Notes under the pieces: model-generated | The model's database searches: none | Told to the model about the DNA's origin: nothing | Seen by the model: only the letters and a program-made list of their open reading frames with translations | From: Antedon bifida | Taxonomy: Eukaryota; Echinodermata; Crinoidea; Comatulida; Antedonidae | Direction of reading: 5' to 3' | DNA length: 64,000 nt | Assembly (NCBI GenBank): GCA_963402885.1 | Contig: OY727093.1 | Coordinates: 682,001 to 746,000, forward strand | Program-made: the position numbers and the translations under genes | Part shown: positions 14,201 to 61,100 of the stretch, piece after piece | Layout: every line of letters begins with the position of its first letter | How positions within the stretch are numbered: position 1 is the stretch's first letter

Positions 14201-17200
14201 ATACGTAGCGCTTACAACCGATTAAGTTCGGATGATCCATCGCATCGATTGGTCAAATTCCTTGCGTTGCGCTGACGTCATTCCTACACATTCGTTATTT
14301 TAAGGACTCGCGGATTAACTTTACAAATTTAGGATTGTCCAATTGCTAAATTTATTAGATTATATATAGATACTGGTATCTAATTATTATTTACTTGTCT
14401 GGCTGCATACGGACTATTATTAATAGGTCATATTTTACAGACATAAACAATTGACATCATTACATAATGTTGTTGACAGAAATATTGATTACACAGTGGT
14501 TATATAACTCACTGTGTTGACATAACGTAGTCTATACAAGAACACTTTAACAATTGGCTGTGACGTCACATTGTACATACTTAGTGAAACCGCCCATCAC
14601 GTGAAACAATAATGACAAACGTACACGCGCGTAATTCAACTGTTATGTACTTGGTCATGCGTATATTATTAAGGGCATACCTCCAATCCCAAATACGAGA
14701 TGTACATTTCACAAAATATTAGCCGGAGAGGACAAAATGAGAAATCCATGGTGTGGTTACAACAGGAGCCGGGCTGTTTAGTATTTATTACAATAAAAGT
14801 ATTTTATTTACAAACAATAACAATAATATTAATAACTTACGTTCCGTTGATGTCCGGCAAATAATCCTTCTAAATCCAATTATGTCCACATGTAAATTGT
14901 TATAAATCCAAGTATTATCCACATACAAAATAAATCCAAAAAATTCACAAGTAACGGATAACATAAAAAACGATCGCAAATTAAGGTTCTTATATGCCTA
15001 CGTGCTGCTTTGTGTGTAGTTTTTATCAGCAACAAACCGATATTCACTGACAACTCACATTACTTGATAGTTGTTCAAAATGTTAAAACCTAATAAAATA
15101 ATACACTGTTAACACAATAACGTTCTCCATGGCAAAGCAAAACAGCAAGAAAACAAGCTTATTAAGCGGAATCCACCACATGTCATGGAATATGCAAATA
15201 ACTCTAAATAACTAAGATGTGTTGGCCAATAGTGGCCCGAGAACTACCGAGCTCGTGTGTTTTCTGACAAAGATTTCCCGATAATTGCCGAGCCCGTGTG
15301 TTCTCTGACAAAGATTGCCCGAGAACTACCGAGCCCGTGCGTTCTCTGACAAAGGTTGCACGAGAATTGCCGAGCCCGTGTGTTCTCCGACAAAGATGGT
15401 CCGGGAATTGCCGAGCCCGTGTGTTCTCTGCTGACAAAGATTGCCCAGGAACTACCGAGCCCGTGTGTTCTCTGACAAAGATTGCCCGAGAATTGCCGAG
15501 CCCGTATGTTCTCTGACAAAGATTGCCCGAGAATTGCCGAGCCCAGTTATGTTCTCTGACAAAGAAGGTCCGATAATTGCCGAGCCCATGTGTTCTCCGA
15601 CAAAGAGGGTCCGATAATTCATCTCCTATTGTCACAATGTGTATATTTATTGTTTTATAATAATGGTTCATTTTTTAATTTATTTCAGGGATACGGCTGG
15701 TCAAGAGCGATTTCGTACTTTAACGTCAACATATTACAGGGGTGCATCAGTATGTTAAAATATTTGTTTGCTTCTAGCAGTGTGTTATGTTAAGGTTTCC
15801 ATCCCGTCTTTTTGGAATACGTCCTTTTGTCTTCAGTAATAAATGACAGGTAGTCCATTCTGGGGATATCCATTCCCTCACCCGATATCAATAATGTACC
15901 CCTAACTGTACCCTTAACAAAGACACGAAACCAAGTGCATTACAATCATATTACATATTATTTAACTTTACATCCTTTCGTTTAGGGAATCATATTGATG
16001 TATGACGTAACAAACGAAGGTTCTTTTAATAATATTACTTACTGGTTGGAAAACATTGTACATGTAAGTTGATTTTAAATGTATTCATAGCTGAACTGAT
16101 TTAATCTGATACACACTGTATTAGATATTGTAAGGCACTACCTAGTCTCTTTTTGCTTTAGTGCACTAGAATACGAACTCATTGCCATTTTGGCCAATCT
16201 TTATGCTGTTAGATGACAAATTTCATCTACTACAAAAAACAAGTCTAGGCGTAAAACAACCTTTTCTTCAGTATAGGTCTAAATTCTTTATGTGCAAAAA
16301 GCACCCCTTTTAACAATCCTGGCTATGGGCTTGCACTAATGTAATGAATGAGACGGCTCCCCGGATGGCTCAGCTCTCGCTATTATTCGAAATTCAGAAT
16401 AAAACATCTTAAAATAAACATTTCTTACAGAATGCCTCTCAGGATGTTTGTAAAGTATTAGTTGGTAACAAATGTGATAAGAACGAACGACAAGTTGACT
16501 ACAGACGAGCACAAATAGTAAGTTATCGTTAAACATTAGTTTTTATCTCATTTTTTGTTGAATAAATTCGATTGATGAAAACGAACAAAAATACACATCT
16601 CCTCTCCCTTCCCCACACCATTATTAATCTTATTCAAAACAAAGTTAATCGGTAGTCAGTCTGTGGTTCTGTCCGTTAAGTGTAGAAAGTTCCATTCATT
16701 TAATATTATTAAAGTATTGCCTAAACTGAAGAGTTTGTCAGGAGGTTGATTGGTCGATTTCGTTTTTCAGTTTTATTGTTTTGTTTTTCTCTCTCTTTTA
16801 ATGGGGCACTCTGATTATCACCTGGCATTAGTTTACCCAGACAGAGTGGTTATCCCCTATAAACAAAGTTAAAACAATATCAAATAAATAAAATGGATAA
16901 GACCAACAGAAAAACCAAACTTAAAATGAAGTCCGATAATAAGTAGCGCTCGATCAAATTCTAAGTAATCATACGACATGATAAGAAATAATAGCATTTA
17001 ATGTCATTGTGATAGTTGAATGACAGGTATATAATAGATACAATGACATTCAGATATCATGTCTGCCCTTTTGTCAACGTTTATGTTTTGGACTATGGAT
17101 GGATGAGTCAGCATTAAAAGTGTGTTGAACTCTGAATCAATAGTTTTACCAATATCGCAACGTTATCAATTATAGGTACAGATAACAAACGCTTAGAACA

Positions 17201-19605: not shown

Positions 19606-24656
<5,051 letters not shown>

Positions 24657-24931
24657 TTAGAGGAATTAAAGCAGGAAAATTGTCAACAATAAAACAACTC
24701 GACTGCATAGAAACGAGAGGTATATTCAGAGCGTCATTCTGACGACTGGAGCATTCTCTACTTCTCTACGGAGCGCCATTTATGCCTTTATTAACTTCAA
24801 TAATAGAAATTGTACTACGGTAACTGCTCAAGTGGACCCAATTTAGCACCAGGGTAGCACAGTGATAAAAAAATAGAAATAAAAGTTACTACTTTTAATA
24901 TCGTTTCGTATATACCCATATCACAAACTGA

Positions 24932-25448
24932 CAAACAGATACATCTTGGCATTCACATTGATTCAAATTTATCTTTTTCTTTTCATGTAAAACTCCGTTC
25001 CAAACTGGGCTTGTCCATCTCCATCTTATCGCGTGCTCGGTCATTTCATTATTAAACACACATCCATACTCCTCTATAACACTATAATCCTCCCACACAT
25101 TGTCTATTGATGTAGTGTTTGGGGAATCAGATCGAATATTGACCGAATACAGACTATTCAAAATAGAGCACTTCGCATTATCCACGAACTAACATTTACA
25201 ACACCTTAAATCTTCATACAGTCCAAGATCGCATGCATCTACAACTGGGCTGCCTTGCCTACAGGTCTGTAAATGGTCTTGCTCCGGAATACCTTGCCCT
25301 GCGTCTTGCCAGAATTCCAAATCATCGATGTACTCGAAGTGTAAGTGAGAGGAAATTTGTCGTCCCTTTCCCAGCTTCATCATCTATAGAGCACAACATA
25401 CCTGAATTTGCTACCCACCAAACTAAGAAATGCGGTAACAATAAATAA
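24932..25448 (+). pseudogene. LINE reverse-transcriptase C-terminal fragment
   Basis: Plus-strand reading with several frame shifts gives LGIHIDSNLSFSFHVKLRSK followed by SISILSRARSF, then LQLGCLAYRSVNGLAPEYLA. These are hallmark C-terminal segments of the reverse transcriptase protein of CR1/Jockey-type non-LTR retrotransposons (YLGxxIDxNLSF and CLxYRSxNGLAPxYL). The catalytic part is missing and frames are broken, so this is a dead 5'-truncated insertion inside the foldback-like composite. Confidence 0.7.
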
Positions 25449-25639
25449 GTCTGCTCTAAAAAAATATTTAATCCCAAAAGAAAAAACTCAACGTTTTGTA
25501 TAGTATTGTAGGCTATATTTTTGTATTTAAGTACATATATATTATATATTTAAATTTTTTGAACATAGTTCATCCGTTTTTTCATATATGTTTTTTACTG
25601 TCTGCATATGCTGTTTAGGGCCACTCTCACAAAATAAGG

Positions 25640-25820
25640 TTTAATAAAAAAATAAAATAGAAATAAAGTCACTAAATTTTAATATCTTTTCGTATGTTAA
25701 TACAATGTGCTCAAGTGGACCCAATTTGGCCCCAGTGGAGCACAGTGATATAAAATAGAAATAAAGTCACTAAATTTTAATATCTTTTCGTATAAAACAC
25801 TGTGCTCAAGTGGACACAAT
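25640..25820 (-). repeat. 97-bp tandem units, left cluster
   Basis: About two units in the orientation opposite to the right cluster: TATAAAATAGAAATAAAGTC, ACTAAATTTTAATATCTTTT and TGCTCAAGTGGACCCAATTT. Another unit sits at 24825-24910, next to the left inverted end. Confidence 0.8.
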
Positions 25821-25827
25821 TTGGTGC

Positions 25828-26700
25828 AAGAGGACCGCGAATGACTAACATACCATCTTTACCATAATACACCTGCACAGACTCATCTGCATAACAACGC
25901 ACGCACATGCCAAACTGTTTAAAATAGAGCTACAAGGTACCCGAAAATGACATCTATTATGTTTTCAAACAACATGCATAAGAATCTTCAGTACCCCACC
26001 ATGCTTGGGGCTGAGCAAAGACAATTTTGAAAAAAAAGCTGTATACAGTAGGTTCCCGCCCGAAAAAATGGCGTTACATTATCTGAATAAAACAAACTAT
26101 ATAAGACTCACCAGGACAATATATGAGCTTGTCCCCGGAAAGTGCACCTATTCATTGAAATATAAAATTAAATATTAAGTCTCCAGTACTAGCCCATCCA
26201 TGGTTGAGGCAGAGCAATGAAACCCAGAAATGCACTTACTTATACTTATTACTATACATAGTCACCTATGATAATTATGATAATGTTAAAAAATCCAGAT
26301 GCGACTTCAACATGCGACATTTCGCTACCAATGTTGCAACATTGATTAACAAAATCAAAATTTAACAGTGGGGCGCGTTAACCGCGTAGGACTAACAATA
26401 CCATCTTCCCCATTACACCTGCACAAACTCATTTGCATAACAACGCAGGGCTTACCAAACTGTTTAAAATAGCTACAAGGTCCCCAGAAATGACACCTAT
26501 AGTATTTTGAAACATGATATATAAGAGTCTTCACTACCCCACCATTTTGAAAAAAATATTTATTGAAATATGAAATTCAATATTAAGTCTCCAGTTAAGC
26601 TCACCATGGTTGGGGCAGAGCTAAGAATGAAAGCTGAGTCCCCGGAAATAATGAAACGAAATATAAAAGTCTTCAGGACCAGCCATACAATGGTAATTGT
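25828..26700. repeat. Two direct copies of a roughly 500-bp interior segment
   Basis: Both copies hold ACTAACA-TACCATCTT, ACACCTGCACA, CTCATTTGCATAACAACGCA, AGCTACAAGGT and AGTCTTCA/AATCTTCAGTACCCC in the same order, starting near 25832 and 26370. Shorter derivatives recur at 27128-27270 and 28150-28295. Confidence 0.65.
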
Positions 26701-27014
26701 TTCCCAAGTGTGAGACATGCAATGCACGCGGCCGTGACGGTAATTCAACAAAACAAAATTATGAAATACAAACAGAGCTAGCACACAAAAGCCTACTTAC
26801 TAATTTTAATATTTCTATAATTTAGAAAAAAATTAGATTTATCATATCACCTTTGATAATTATAATGTTAAATTTCAACTATCCAGATGCGAATTTTAGG
26901 TTGGGTTTAAAAAAAACTCGACTTTCATATATGCTTCAATTTCGAAGATCTGCTTAAAACATATTTATTTATTTATTTATTCTGCCATAAACTTTTATTC
27001 ACAACATATTAGTA

Positions 27015-27271
27015 GGCCTACAATACAATTATCTTGCATGAAACGGATATTTAAAAATACACTATAATGTGTAACGGTAGAATTACAATTCTAATGTAAA
27101 AGATTAACAAAATAAAAATTGAACAGTGCTGTGTGTTGATCGCGAATGACTAACAATACCGTCTTTCCTACAGCATATGTGCACACTCATTTGCATAACA
27201 AACGCACGGCATACCAAACTACGATGAGATAAATTAATTCTCTTCTAAACACGTAACGAAGAGAATTAATT
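27015..27271 (+). repeat. Direct repeat, first copy (second at 28044-28302)
   Basis: Nearly identical over about 255 bp to 28044-28302: GCCTACAATACAATTATCTT, ATAATGTGTAACGGTAGAAT and AACAGTGNTGTGTGTTGATC occur in order. Both end in a hairpin made from AATTAATTCTCTTC and its inverse GAAGAGAATTAATT. The second copy interrupts the 97-bp array, so the segment has moved or been duplicated recently. Confidence 0.85.
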
Positions 27272-27340
27272 CCCTTTTTTTTACATTAAAATAAATTGAG
27301 GGCGCTAAACATAAAATTTAAACCGTCAAAGCAGTTTGCA

Positions 27341-27609
27341 AGAGCCAAAAAAAAAAAAGATGGTAAATGTGCTCTCCCTGCCTCAGCACTAAGGCCCTGC
27401 CACAGCCTTTTGGGGTCGTTTCCACCACATCACCAGATGCATTGATGTTGTCGCCTCATGATGTGTGGTGGAAAGGGGGACGTATGATCTGTGAACCCCA
27501 AACACAGTGGCTCGCATAGCCTTAACTCTATTCCACCGACCAGCGTGGGAATCGAACCCACGACATACGTGTTGTTAACACGACGCTCAGACGACTGAGC
27601 TAACTGATC
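27341..27609 (-). mobile_element. SINE with tRNA-Val(AAC)-like head
   Basis: On the minus strand the head at 27609-27538 folds as a 72-nt tRNA. It has a 7-bp acceptor stem (two G-T pairs), D-stem GCTC/GAGC, anticodon loop TTAACAA (anticodon AAC, Val), and T-arm GTGGG-TTCGATT-CCCAC. It continues into about 175 bp of unrelated body and ends in a T-run near 27348. The body and tail argue for a SINE rather than a working tRNA gene. A real tRNA gene with chance downstream sequence cannot be excluded. Confidence 0.65.
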
Positions 27610-27699
27610 ATTTTGGTTTTTGCAAGGTTAATACGATATTTATGACGTAATGATCAATTACGTAATACACGTATAAATAGACTATTATCAGCTTTTCAG

Positions 27700-27795
27700 T
27701 CATGTACTTGGTGGCTTAACGGGTAATGCTCAGTTTTGAGTGCTATCGGCTGGGGTTCAAACCTCGACGGATATTTTTTTTTTTTTTAATTGTTT
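27700..27795 (+). mobile_element. tRNA-like element ending in T-runs
   Basis: ACTTGGTGGCTTAACGGGTA resembles an A-box and GGGGTTCAAACCTC a B-box. A long T-run follows at once, as expected of a Pol III terminator. The cloverleaf is imperfect. It may be a short SINE or a tRNA pseudogene. Confidence 0.45.
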
Positions 27796-27878
27796 TTTTT
27801 TTAAATAGAGATATGTGACACTGTATTGTCGAACATGTATGGTACCATACCGGTAGGTATTCAAATATGCTTAATACG

Positions 27879-29210
27879 AAAAGATATTAAAATTCAGTGA
27901 CTTATTTCTATTTTATATCACTGTGCTCCACTGGCTCCAAGTTGGGTCCACTTGAGCACAGTGTATTAACATACGAAAAGATATTAAAATTCCGTGAATT
28001 ATTTCTATTTTATACCACTGTGCTCGCCTGGTGCCAAATTGGGCCTACAATACAATTATCTTGCATGAAACGGATATTTAAAAGTACACTATAATGTGTA
28101 ACGGTAGAATTACAATTCTAATGTAAAAGATTAACAAAATAAAAATTGAACAGTGTTGTGTGTTGATCGCGAATGACTAACAATACCGTCTTTCCCACAG
28201 CACATGTGCACACTCATTTGCATAACAAACGCACGGCATACCAAACTACGATGAGATAAAATTAATTCTCTTCTTAACACGTAACGAAGAGAATTAATTT
28301 TATATCACTGTGCTCCACTGGCGCCAAATTGGGCCCACTAGAGCACAGTGTATTAACATACCAAAAGATATTACAATTCAGTGACTTATTTCTATTTTAT
28401 ATCACTGTGCTCCACTGACGCCAAATTGGGTCCACTTGAGCACAGTGTATCAAAATACGAAAAGATATTAAAATTCCGTGACTTATTTCTATTTTATATC
28501 ACTATGCTCCCCTGGCTCCAAATAGGGTTCAATTGAGCAAAGTGTATTAAAATACGGAAAGATATTACAATTCAGTGACTTATTTCTATTTTATATCACT
28601 GTGCTCCACTGACGCCAAATTGGGTCCACTTGAGCACAGTGTATCAAAATACGAAAAGATATTAAAATTCCGTGACTTATTTCTATTTTATATCACTATG
28701 CTCCCCTGGCTCCAAATAGGGTTCAATTGAGCAAAGTGTATTAAAATACGGAAAGATATTACAATTCAGTGACTTATTTCTATTTTATATCACTGTGCTC
28801 CACTGACGCCAAATTGGGTCCACTTGAGCACAGTGTATTAACATACGAAAAGATATTAAAATTCAGTGACTTTTTTCTATTTTATATCAATATGCTTCCC
28901 TGGCTCCAAATTGGGTCCACATGAGCACAATGTAATAACATACGAAACGATATTAAAATCAGTGACTTATTTCTATTTTATATCACTGTGCTCCACTGGC
29001 TCTAAATTGTGTCCACTTGAGCACAGTGTTTTAGCATACAAAAAGATATTAACATTCAATGACTTGTTTCTATTTATATCACTGTCCTCCACTGGCTCCA
29101 AATAGGGTCTACTTGAGCACAGTGTATTAAAATACGAAAAGATATTAAAATTAGTGACTTATTTCTATTTTATATCATCACTGTATGTGCTCCACTGGTG
29201 CTAAATTTGG
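27879..29210 (+). repeat. 97-bp tandem array, right cluster
   Basis: About a dozen units, each with GAAAAGATATTAAAATTCAG, TGACTTATTTCTATTTTATA and TCACTGTGCTCCACTGGCTC followed by a word near TTGGGTCCACTTGAGCACAG. Higher-order pairing of variant units is visible between 28360 and 28850, a roughly 195-bp period. The array is interrupted at 28044-28302 by the second copy of the 27015 repeat. Confidence 0.9.
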
Positions 29211-31109
29211 TCCACTGAACCAGAGTTACCGTAGTACTATTTCTATTTCGGAAGTAAATAAAGGCATATATGGCGCTCCGTAGAAGTAGAGAATGCTATC
29301 GCCGAAATGGCGCTCTGAATATACCTCGAAACGACTGAAAACTCGAGCGGGACATAAACGTACCAATTTATAGAAGGCAGTATAAACAATATTCTATTCA
29401 TCATGTTATCCATCATGATCCAAATAATCTTGTGTTAAGCTCTTCTATGATTAAATAAAAAGTGGATTTTTAAAGATATACACAAGTAAAAAAAACACGA
29501 CACATTTCAAATAAACTTGTACTTAAATTACTTTAATGAGGTTTTATCTGAAGTATAAATGAACGTGGTGGCGACATTTAAAATGTATATACATTATCTA
29601 ACCCTACGCCATCGTATTATCTTCATAATATACAACTGCTTAACTTTCACATATTTTGTTAACAAACATCGCAAATCATACCTTACATAATATTTCTTTG
29701 GTATGTTTCTCCGCAGTGCAGTAGTACACGTTTTGTGTACAACTACTATCGTCCTGCCGTCAATATCCTGTTAGCCTGTCATCATCATCACGTCCTTATT
29801 ACTACTTTAAGATACAAAAATTGAGGTAGTCTTGTTTTTATAATGAGGTATTCAGTATAATACTCTATCTAATAATAATAATTATGGCACCATTTCATTT
29901 TTATCAATTTTCTTACATCTTTCGGGTAAAATCCGAGTAAAATAGACTGGGATCATTTTAATACTCAACCAGATCTTCTTATCATTATTGGCCAGGTCTA
30001 CATAAAATTTAATTGAGCTGAGGTAATCACAAAATGGTCATTTTTTTTTTAAATCACTCTTAAACATTATACTTTAACATGCAATCACTGAATGCTAATT
30101 ATCATATTATAGTAACTGTAGGCCTATTTACTAATACACCTATTGTACATGGAAACATACTGTAGACCTACACATGTAAAGAATATACTTATCCTTACAA
30201 TGTATAGTAAAATACAAATATCTCTCTGCTTAAAGATCATACCAGTTACAAATTCCCTAAAACTTGAGATTTTTTGGCACACAAGTTTACCTTATTAAAG
30301 GACCACTAAAACCACACCCAAATAATAGTCTTTAATTGCAGAGACACATGTATGCAAAACATGTTACACAAATCTATGTGTGACTTGTAGATGTCCGTTT
30401 AGGTTTACTTATTTACCCAGGTTAGGTTGTTTCATGAGTACAGTTATCGCTAAGTATGAACTAAATTACCCAAGTAAATAACAAAGCCTAAATGGGCACC
30501 ATGTACAAGTAAGTCAAACTGCCTTGGTTCAATCTACCAAGCAATTGTTTGTTTCAAGTAAATATTAATATATAAATTGATAAAAGTGCTAAACACTCAA
30601 ATATTCCCTGTTTGCCGAGTTAATCCATTTTATCTCAATACAAATTATTTAATGGAAAAATGGGTCATGTACATTCTACCAAATAATTTGTCATATTCTT
30701 CCCCTCTTTCCAAGTAGGTCACGCAAATAATACAGTTAATGCCCTTTTGTCAATTGTATCATCAGGTTGTATAAAAGATACATTTAACCTTTCAATATAT
30801 TGTACAGTATTGGTTTGTACTATGAATGATAACTTAAAACACATCAAAATAAAAGTTGTGTACAAAATAAATATAACTATCATGTAATGCTAACAAACAA
30901 TGGGCAGCACTGATATTAACACATTTTTTATATACAAACTTAAAAACTACCAAGGTAGTAAACTCAGTGCTGTAGTCACGAGAATAGAATTGGTGCATTG
31001 GTTGCAAAAAGACAGAACAACCCCCTGAGCAGGCCACAGGGTTGTCAAAGACCTCTGCCAAAAAGTGGTCAGGATGAAACCAACCATACTGGTGACTACG
31101 GCCCTAACA

Positions 31110-58100: not shown

Positions 58101-61100
58101 AGACAATTCACTTTGTTCTTAAAACTTACCTACAACTGTTAGTTTAGCACTTCTTTCAGCTACAACGCTCCCAGCTTGAAGAACTTGGCAGGAATACAAG
58201 CCAGAATCATCTGATGACAAGTCCTGTAACATCAGGTTATTACGGCCTATTGAACTTGCTCGGCTCGACAATTCAACTATTTTTCCATCTGAAAAACAAA
58301 ATTTATTTAATATTTTCATTAGATAAGTTTGTGGCCATCAATAAAAACTTTTTTTGTAATTAAAAAAAATATATTTATATTTATTCCAGTACACTGATAT
58401 TGTTTATAAGGGTCATCACCTGACAAGTGCTTGTACTTCTAGACAATTTTAATATTAAAAATAAATATTTAATTTTCCTTTTTTTTGTATTGTTATTTTT
58501 GTGATATTTTGACATTTTTAATATCTGAAATTCAACGTAGTAAGTATTTATTTATTGATTTAATTTGGACACTTCATCTTTAGAACTGTGGCACTCACAA
58601 AAACAAAGCCATTTGTGGTGCGGTTAAAAGAAAGAAAAAAAAACATTACATAACATCAACAAACATTAAAAATACCTGTATGTACAGAGTATATAAAAAG
58701 AGAAAGAGTTTGATCTCTTTATATCAAAATGTCGAACATAAAGCTGATGATATGCTTTGTAAGTAGAACAAGTCTCAAAATGTCTCTAATGACAACAATC
58801 AATCATTAATGTTTGTTATCTGTTTTTGTACTTTTCTTCATCTCTATTCACCTTGAGCATTTCATGTTTTTACTAAATACAACACAAACCGATCAATCAA
58901 CATTTCATTATATTGTTGTTATCTTATATCCTAATGGCATGCCATCAGTAGCTATTAAAAAAGATCTTAGATTCTCACATTATTGTCCATGTTCTATCTA
59001 GCACATTGGATGTTTAAAGGCAGAATTCACATTAAGAGTAATGTAACTGCGATACAGGGTAGACAATGGGGAGGCGGGATGGCAAGAGGCTTTCTACATT
59101 CTAGGAGTGTTATCAGATAATCTATATTGTTTTGACAACTCTTGTAACATGACCACAGTGCTGATTTTGCCATTTGTCCCCCAATGTAATGTAGACTGCA
59201 ATGTAACTGTGATAGACCGCAATGTAACTGTGATAGACCGCAATGTAACTGTGATAGACAGCAATGTAACTGTGATAGACCGCAATGTAACTGTGATAGA
59301 CCGCAATGTAACTGTGATAGACCGCAATGTAACTGTGATAGACCGCAATGTAACTGTGATAGACCGCAATGTAACTGTGATAGACCGCAATGTAACTGTG
59401 ATAGACCGCAATGTAACTGTGATAGACCGCAATGTAACTGTGATAGACCGCAATGTAACTGTGATAGACCGCAATGTAACTGTGATAGACCGCAATGTAA
59501 CTGTGATAGACAGCAATGTAACTGTGATAGACCGCAATGTAACTGTGATAGACCGCAATGTAACTGTGATAGACCGCAATGTAACTGTGATAGACCGCAA
59601 TGTAACTGTGATAGACCGCAATGTAACTGTGATAGACCGCAATGTAACTGTGATAGACCGCAATGTAACTGTGATAGACCGCAATGTAACTGTGATAGAC
59701 CGCAATGTAACTCAGAAAAAAGCATGTAAACATAACTAATTAAATATTTAACTGTACACCATATTTACTGGTTTACCACATCACAAAAACATCACAATAA
59801 TAATAATCTTTTATTATCATGATTGACACGATTCTTCTCTGATACAAAATGAAATAGGCAAAGGTCAACAGATAATGGCTTTATCACATGACCTCCCAAA
59901 TGATGCTTCAAAATTAAGTTTACCTATGTGTACATGCTCTTCTCTCTATCGGAGTTAAATTGCGTTCAAACACAAACATTAGACCAATTAAAAATGCAGT
60001 GAAAAATGAAGTCCTGAACTTAACTTTTGCATTGTAATTTCCAAAATTTTGGGGAAGCTGGGCTGACTGGCGAACTAATCGGGTGTATCTCTGAAACCCA
60101 TCAGAGTTATATTGCAGTTGAAGGTATACTTGGAGGTATAAAATCAGTACACTTTCATTGGATGTACAGTAACTCAGATATGATTCAGATGCTTAAGAAT
60201 TAACAAACCTAACAGTGTAGTGTGTGTAAACACACCTTTTTGACCATTGTAATACAGTAAATGTAAAAATAAGACAGAAACAGATCGAAAACGAAATCAT
60301 CTTTAATACTCAAGAACATAAATGGGAACAATTACATTAAATATGATGCAAAAGTTGTCATCCATTAACTTAACAGCCCATAAAGAAGTTCTATTTCAAA
60401 TTGTGTTTATTTCCATTACTTAATAAATCTAGTGTTGAGGTGATAGCCTTTAACCAAGAAATGTGTAGTTTATCTACAGTACTAAATTATACAAAAGTTC
60501 TTTGTTGAAATTCTGATGAGCTTTCTATACAGTAATTATCTTATCTTAATTGTGAGTAATACAAGCTACAGTGTTTAATTACATCTCTTGTGCTTCATAT
60601 GCTAAATAATCAATTCTGCGTTCTAAAAATTTATCTGACAAACGTCATTAAAAACGTTTACAGTATACCATTTTGATTCATCTTCAATATCCTTTTTTTT
60701 AATTGTTTATTTTACAGTATCTTGGACACAATACAGTAGTAAATTAATCACTGTCCTATCAGATAGGTGGTAAACCCCTGACACGGGGGCTTTCTTGTGA
60801 ACCAGTTCACCCCTCATCTTGAATGACTGGGTTATTAATTAAAGTAACACAGGTAAAATGACGTGTACACTGGACCTTCAGTTTATAGCCCTTAGAAGGC
60901 TTGTTCCACCACCACAACTAGAAGCAAGTCGCCCCGAACCCATGCCAATATTGTTGGCTTTTTACGGTAAACATCAGATATAGCTTGACCCAGCATCCAT
61001 AAGGGTGTGTTATAATGTTGCACACTTCCTTTAGATAAAAAGTGTCATAAGAAAGTGCCATGTCCTAAATTGCGTTACCTACATAAACAGCTGAAGGTGA

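Follow-up and report, generated by a model that had tools for sequence, protein, structure and literature searches.

Foldback elements are inverted repeats that reshape chromosomes. Here, we describe a family represented in a 64,000-nucleotide stretch of the genome of the crinoid Antedon bifida (assembly GCA_963402885.1, contig OY727093.1, designated C1, positions 682001-746000; hereafter the window). It is very probably a non-autonomous cut-and-paste DNA transposon of the foldback type, defined by terminal inverted repeats (TIRs) and carrying an inner tRNA-headed unit presumed to be transcribed by RNA polymerase III (Pol III). Three described systems come closest to it, as far as they are covered in the portions of PMC3573991, PMC4079207, PMC3706591 and PMC2775673 used for the comparison. 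Galileo, a member of the P superfamily in Drosophila, shares with the Antedon family 7-bp target duplications, long repetitive TIRs of variable length (with tandem repeats inside the TIRs in one Galileo subfamily), chimeric copies and many copies devoid of a transposase. Tetris, a foldback of Drosophila virilis, is alike in its outer domain, its array of tandem units and its variable non-coding middle, and its mobilising element is likewise reported there as not found. Dada resembles our family in making short duplications (6 bp, or the 7-letter GCGTTCA for one tRNA-Leu family) and in its link to small RNA genes.

The Antedon family nevertheless differs from each of the three. Unlike Galileo, it shows no GTAGTAC consensus and no P transposase was found with its ends, while its tandem interior modules and tRNA-headed gene are absent from the Galileo passages compared. 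The Tetris unit measures ~220 bp as against 97 bp here and has a different sequence; tRNA occurs zero times in the main text of the Tetris paper, and in Antedon whole interior modules are amplified. Dada inserts into RNA genes, whereas here an RNA-like gene lies inside the element; Dada was discounted as a match since the descriptions of Dada-U6 and Dada-U1 give them no TIRs, whereas the ends here are TIRs. Judged by its sequence organization, the architecture matches that of a foldback, closest to Tetris and Galileo. Searches of one open-access library for a tRNA-headed gene in a foldback or TIR element listed no such case by title or by the start of the abstract.

The element copy in the window is complete, spanning 24717-29327 (4,611 bp), and both termini read GAGGTATATTCAGAGCG, the right one as its reverse complement. 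The exact 7-bp duplication GAAACGA, located at 24710-24716 and 29328-29334, fixes these positions as the true termini. A previous sequence-only reading had proposed inverted ends at 24697..29349. The ends themselves proved real, with 24717-24911 and 29132-29327 aligning at 82% identity over 203 columns (E 1.5e-48), but the true termini lie 20 and 22 bp further inside. The outer parts alone (24640-24822 and 29224-29400) scored 147.9; among 2000 segment pairs drawn at random from the window, the two highest scores were 135.0 and 79.2. In an alignment of 44 ends, chosen for an intact start and including the left end of the window copy, each column of the outer 13 bases was at least 95% identical.

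We searched the genome (315.6 Mb, 27 contigs) for further copies; fetched loci bear L numbers. The 22-base terminal pattern, allowing at most one mismatch, matched 384 places (197 forward, 187 reverse), and its reversed control matched none. A left-end search, in which 40 of 630 candidate places were scored, gave at least 51 matches; 40 long left-end matches were found besides the window, of which 33 begin at the equivalent of 24716-24718 and seven up to 12 bases further out. The position is known for 129 of at least 384 TIR places (100 from the pattern search and 29 from the left-end search), and the 100 listed pattern matches include 28 adjacent plus/minus pairs enclosing 1.7 to 14.3 kb.

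Target duplications were assessed in 20 candidate copies for which both ends were available, the window copy among them; single-ended copies (L016, L020, L025, a second copy in L027 and a partial end in L017) stood outside this set. Terminal inverted matches were present in 19 of the 20 candidates and an exact 7-bp duplication in 12, with a 6-bp one in L015, whereas mismatched flank pairs gave an exact 7-mer in only one of 380 combinations, probably owing to a flank shared by L010a and L010b. L010b is itself inserted in a TIR of another copy with the duplication TCGTCAG, and joining its flanks restores intact TIRs but for five extra bases. The window copy thus belongs to a dispersed family of mobile TIR DNA transposons; many copies with target duplications were what the sequence-only reading had set as the sign of a mobile element. 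That reading had also named a competing explanation, namely a local inverted duplication of the region upstream of a gene it took for TEX9 (a putative name), which would not be mobile. The element does lie upstream of that gene, but the 384 terminal matches and the 7-bp duplications refute this explanation, to which we assign practically no probability.

Seven of the 20 candidates without any duplication, and the one with 6 bp, count against the transposon reading. Four of the seven have a faulty end: the terminus is damaged in L022, L024 and L027a, and the right end of L010a was wrongly assigned because L010b sits in it. The remaining three (L009, L011b and L019) lack the duplication although their ends are intact, and might be chimeric or old copies. 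Two further features of the distribution were recorded. At L027:4943-4949, two copies stand head to head, 5 bp apart. TIR places also cluster near the ends of contigs C1, C7 and C8: the terminal 3 Mb contain 52 of 81 exact places (32 of 50 loci once clustered), where 17% would be expected.

The ends have the layered structure of foldback arms. Each consists of a ~105-bp outer domain followed by 97-bp units in mirror orientation, plus-strand on the left and minus-strand on the right, with a unit core of CACTGTGCTC ... GAGCACAGTG as read from the sequence. Under the length filter applied to unit counts, the window copy has three units on the left and 10 on the right; counting the 41-bp core gives a higher right-side number, 12, in agreement with the count in the sequence-only reading. 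Across the family, the array lengths that the same reading had suggested comparing do differ, ranging from 0 to 10 units per side under the length filter. The palindromic core of the unit may account for the single hits in the opposite orientation in L009 and L029.

Arm length varies as well. Twelve of the 20 copies have TIRs of 165-196 bp at 82-89% identity. Longer arms occur in L018 (1,074 bp at 96%), L027a (479 columns at 93%) and L015 (288 bp at 96%, plus another inverted pair of 653 columns at 87%); the terminal repeats are shorter or weaker in L009, L028, L029 and L011b, and L024 has none. A few copies are therefore long-armed foldbacks. Long TIRs, internal tandem repeats and variable length are all found in the family, so that the foldback half of the proposed Foldback/Galileo likeness stands; of the Galileo half, the 7-bp duplication is shared and the GTAGTAC consensus is not.

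Between the arms lie diverged blocks, a piece of a long interspersed element (LINE) and a tRNA-like region, in an order that is constant wherever they are present. These interior modules measure ~1.5 to 2 kb and are tandemly repeated in several copies. The 8.6-kb L029 contains four matches to the body of the tRNA-headed unit, three of them with a tRNA call, and none of its frames reaches 100 aa; a 14.3-kb TIR pair on C7 contains seven body matches at ~1.77-kb steps, corresponding to an up to seven-fold module, and the fetched part of L020 gave four tRNA calls. In the window, repeated interior blocks had been noted before and were recovered: 27015-27271 and 28042-28299 are 98% duplicates, and other blocks are repeated too. 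The 258-bp block 28042-28299 is joined directly to the unit array, and we read it as what is left of a second interior module. L013 has a similar, though not identical, junction, and its alignment spanning block plus array reaches 91.5% over 659 columns; within the block, its 98.8% is scarcely distinct from the 98.4% of other copies. This pattern fits recombination between copies.

The LINE piece was identified through 24918-25203, whose translation matches the C-terminal region of a reverse transcriptase encoded in the same genome (29-39% identity, E 1.4e-9). Among the matches listed, this piece lies beside the left array, either full or cut to ~90 bp, in 17 of the 20 loci, and the tRNA-like region recurs in 19, L013 being the exception; ARAGORN made 32 tRNA-like calls in 19 of the 20 loci. 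The sequence-only reading had correctly recognised a LINE fragment and, as a "SINE" (short interspersed element), what is a tRNA-Val-like sequence with a structured body, but had taken both for nested insertions. Since both recur in place, they precede amplification and were present in the ancestor; their shared position rules out separate late insertions. At L043:2888-6061, an inserted LINE retains one 1,058-aa open frame with endonuclease and reverse transcriptase.

The tRNA-headed unit was the unexpected component of the interior. Downstream of the head, a body of ~175 nt leads to a run of 12 T at 27358-27347, and 27612-27349 folds with a z of -3.08. The anticodon was Val in 29 of the 32 calls (AAC in 23; GAC in six, from L009, L027 and L028). 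It was unreadable in the other three calls and in three of six further loci, which is not what a functional tRNA-Val gene would show. Some copies lack one base of the anticodon loop while the rest of the block is kept, making decoding an unlikely role. The B box, GGTTCGATTCC, is invariant in 21 aligned sequences, of 23 distinct ones. Beyond tRNA, Rfam returned only matches below the gathering scores.

Since the 20 loci were fetched around high-scoring ends, the conservation figures come from a biased sample. In an alignment of 42 copies, 24 of 249 sites vary within the block, compared with 164 of 329 in the flanks on both sides. Shared variants number nine in the block and 104 in the flanks, singletons 15 and 60; shared variants are thus the more strongly depleted (p 0.024 for the contrast), which suggests that selection acted in the spreading lineages. 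A comparison of two groups of copies (27 and 9), in which L029, with anticodon AAC, was placed by its flanks together with the three GAC loci and L016 in the other group, gave between-group differences of 2.6% for the tRNA and 2.4% for the body, against 12.3% just upstream; moving L016, whose placement is doubtful, across to join them changed these values to 2.5%, 2.4% and 12.5%. Between the window and L028, 40-base steps show contiguous high identity of 0.95-1.00 over 27340-27619 and 0.69-0.97 elsewhere. The low-divergence stretch coincides at both limits with the candidate transcription unit. Further upstream, the island 27661-27700 differs between the groups by 2.8-5.0%, compared with 9-23% in the adjacent 20-base steps. 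From these patterns, we infer that 27612-27347 is a Pol III RNA gene kept by selection while the element spreads. Separately, the plus strand at 27700-27785 contains a tRNA-like sequence with a good B box and a T-run, oriented divergently from the main unit; it is missing from the Rfam matches at E up to 5.

Several observations weigh against this interpretation. The loss of an anticodon-loop base in some copies is one; another is that singletons, too, are three-fold rarer in the block, an outcome not expected if selection acted solely on source copies. Part of the low divergence may stem from gene conversion, misaligned flanks or a lower mutability of this GC-richer stretch, and the 42 copies are not independent, as some are tandem copies of one element. 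None of the 68 consensus pairs shows a compensatory change, since the sequences hardly vary, and a G-to-C substitution frequent in part of the family falls on a position that forms a pair in the fold of the window copy. Finally, with up to three mismatches allowed, a 33-mer of the body matched 618 places in the genome and a 33-mer of the upstream flank, the one flank pattern counted, matched 205 (reversed controls, 0 and 0), which also fits body copies outside the element.

This excess of body matches, together with the absent covariation and the evident recombination between copies, would also agree with the capture of an old SINE by the element; exchange between copies, or a SINE still active elsewhere, would then account for the low divergence of the block. 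tRNA-derived SINEs with conserved central domains have the same layout, a tRNA head followed by a conserved body. However, low divergence starts and stops with the transcription unit, the unit ends in a T-run without an A-tail, and the copies checked here sit within a TIR element. A listed TIR lies within 15 kb of 76 of the 98 comparable exact body matches, as compared with 1.4% of random places. Among the 22 others, the six that were fetched all proved to be part of longer element homology, so that free copies of the block numbered zero among these six loci; three more lie in the element copy L025. As far as examined, the tRNA-headed unit does not appear to be an ordinary free SINE, and we lean against a captured SINE as the explanation while regarding it as a serious possibility.

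No transposase had been seen in the window element, and none was recognised in the copies examined, a point against the transposon reading: frames of at least 130 aa inside the element bounds of the 20 loci, read by inspection and not by a family scan, contained no transposase, and the 7.8-kb TIR pair of L043 contained the inserted LINE and no transposase. The full-length relative with a transposase that the sequence-only reading had suggested looking for was thus not found in the 20 loci, L029, L043 or the P and MULE (Mutator-type) places. Nor did an autonomous partner appear among the P places, including six P loci and a second copy of a 642-aa P family, the MULE places or matches to a related-terminus pattern. 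The same 13 terminal bases with another continuation gave five matches against two for the control, and one of the five was the copy L011b.

Membership in the P superfamily as a Galileo-type element, moved by a THAP/P transposase of the same genome, would fit the 7-bp duplications, the long, internally repetitive ends and the transposase loss, all of them Galileo traits in the passages compared. The genome offers 58 matches to P-type transposase, and one P element (in L032) has a 7-bp flanking match, CTACAGT. The nearest of these matches, however, is 59 kb from any of the 129 TIR places, and of the two P families with a visible edge, one has CAAAGATC at each end and the other ACCGCCGAACC at the one shared-homology edge available, in place of the GAGGTATA of the present family. 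The Galileo consensus GTAGTAC, as given in the portions compared, occurs in none of the 12 duplications. Because this consensus is missing and no P transposase was found with these ends, we did not file the element as Galileo and consider such an origin rather doubtful. Among the P-type elements themselves, L032 (43-5108) and L033 contain a transposon with termini CAAAGATCTTATA and a frame of 758 aa (623 aa in L033). Another P-type family (e.g., L030 and L042) gave 15 equally scoring matches, with frames of 642 aa in 14 and 638 aa in one; over 5.1 kb, the two copies fetched share 99.5% identity. The family looks recently active.

MULEs usually produce longer target duplications, of 8-11 bp, than the 7-bp ones observed here. 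A Mutator-type foldback, like Tm1, would nonetheless have precedent, as a Mutator/Foldback family is, by its title, in print (PMC3169594), and the genome has 33 MULE transposase matches. The nearest is 77 kb from any of the 129 TIR places, and one lies on a contig without a listed TIR. We therefore consider a MULE origin improbable, given the distance and the duplication length.

For the preferred reading, a non-autonomous foldback-type transposon with a tRNA-headed unit, a mechanism may be proposed. A transposase from another element, supplied in trans, would bind the TIR, and the 97-bp array units could act as extra transposase binding sites, by analogy with the role discussed for the repeats of Galileo and Tetris in the passages compared. 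Arrays and modules would lengthen and shorten through unequal exchange between copies, while Pol III would transcribe the tRNA-headed unit. The block would benefit the element, copies without it spreading less well, which would explain why it is the best-preserved interior part.

Carried further, this scheme would make the transposon's spread dependent on its own non-coding Pol III RNA gene, with either the RNA or a TFIIIC-binding promoter selected at the level of the transposon and multiplied together with the modules; it may aid escape from silencing, settling near chromosome ends or mobilisation. We advance this last idea as a speculation and consider it unlikely on balance. To our knowledge, conserved non-coding cargo is not usually expected in foldback elements. 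If the tRNA-headed unit is indeed selected, it would be a non-coding gene serving a DNA transposon. Independently of this, one genome displays array growth, module growth and arm extension together, which helps in asking how foldback arms lengthen. The features of the window copy are collected in Table 1.

Table 1. Features of the foldback-type element copy in the window (positions in the window; strand as +, - or. for none).
Feature	Position	Strand	Basis or remark
Left target-site duplication GAAACGA	24710..24716	+	Identical to 29328-29334
Left TIR outer domain, starting GAGGTATATTCAGAGCG	24717..24822	+	Alignment of 44 ends
First 97-bp-type unit of left array, partial	24825..24912	+	
LINE-derived 3' fragment, limits approximate	24913..25651	+	tblastn with LINE protein from L043
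Two 97-bp-type units of left array	25652..25834	+	
Interior module of diverged repeated blocks, ending in a AATTAATTCTCTTC...GAAGAGAATTAATT palindrome	25834..27271	.	Stop-to-stop frames of at most 78 aa
Candidate Pol III transcription unit	27347..27612	-	Rfam tRNA 50.4 bits; conservation; fold
Parts of the candidate unit: tRNA-Val-like head, body, T-run	27610-27536, 27535-27359, 27358-27347	-	
Conserved island upstream of the tRNA-like head, with the words TATTTATA, TTACGTAA and TTACGTCA within and beside it	27661..27700	-	Between-group difference
One full and one partial 97-bp unit of right array, ahead of the duplicated block	27870..28041	-	
Second copy of block 27015-27271, adjoining the unit array	28042..28299	+	98%
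Main right array, nine 97-bp units	28297..29216	-	Length filter
Right TIR outer domain	29224..29327	-	Random-pair score test; end alignment
Right target-site duplication GAAACGA	29328..29334	+	Identical to 24710-24716

Elsewhere in the window, three other tandem arrays were observed: 25 copies of a 21-bp unit at 59192-59712 (99%), six copies of a 49-bp unit at 22503-22796 (99%) and nine copies of a 41-bp unit at 15233-15606 (85%).

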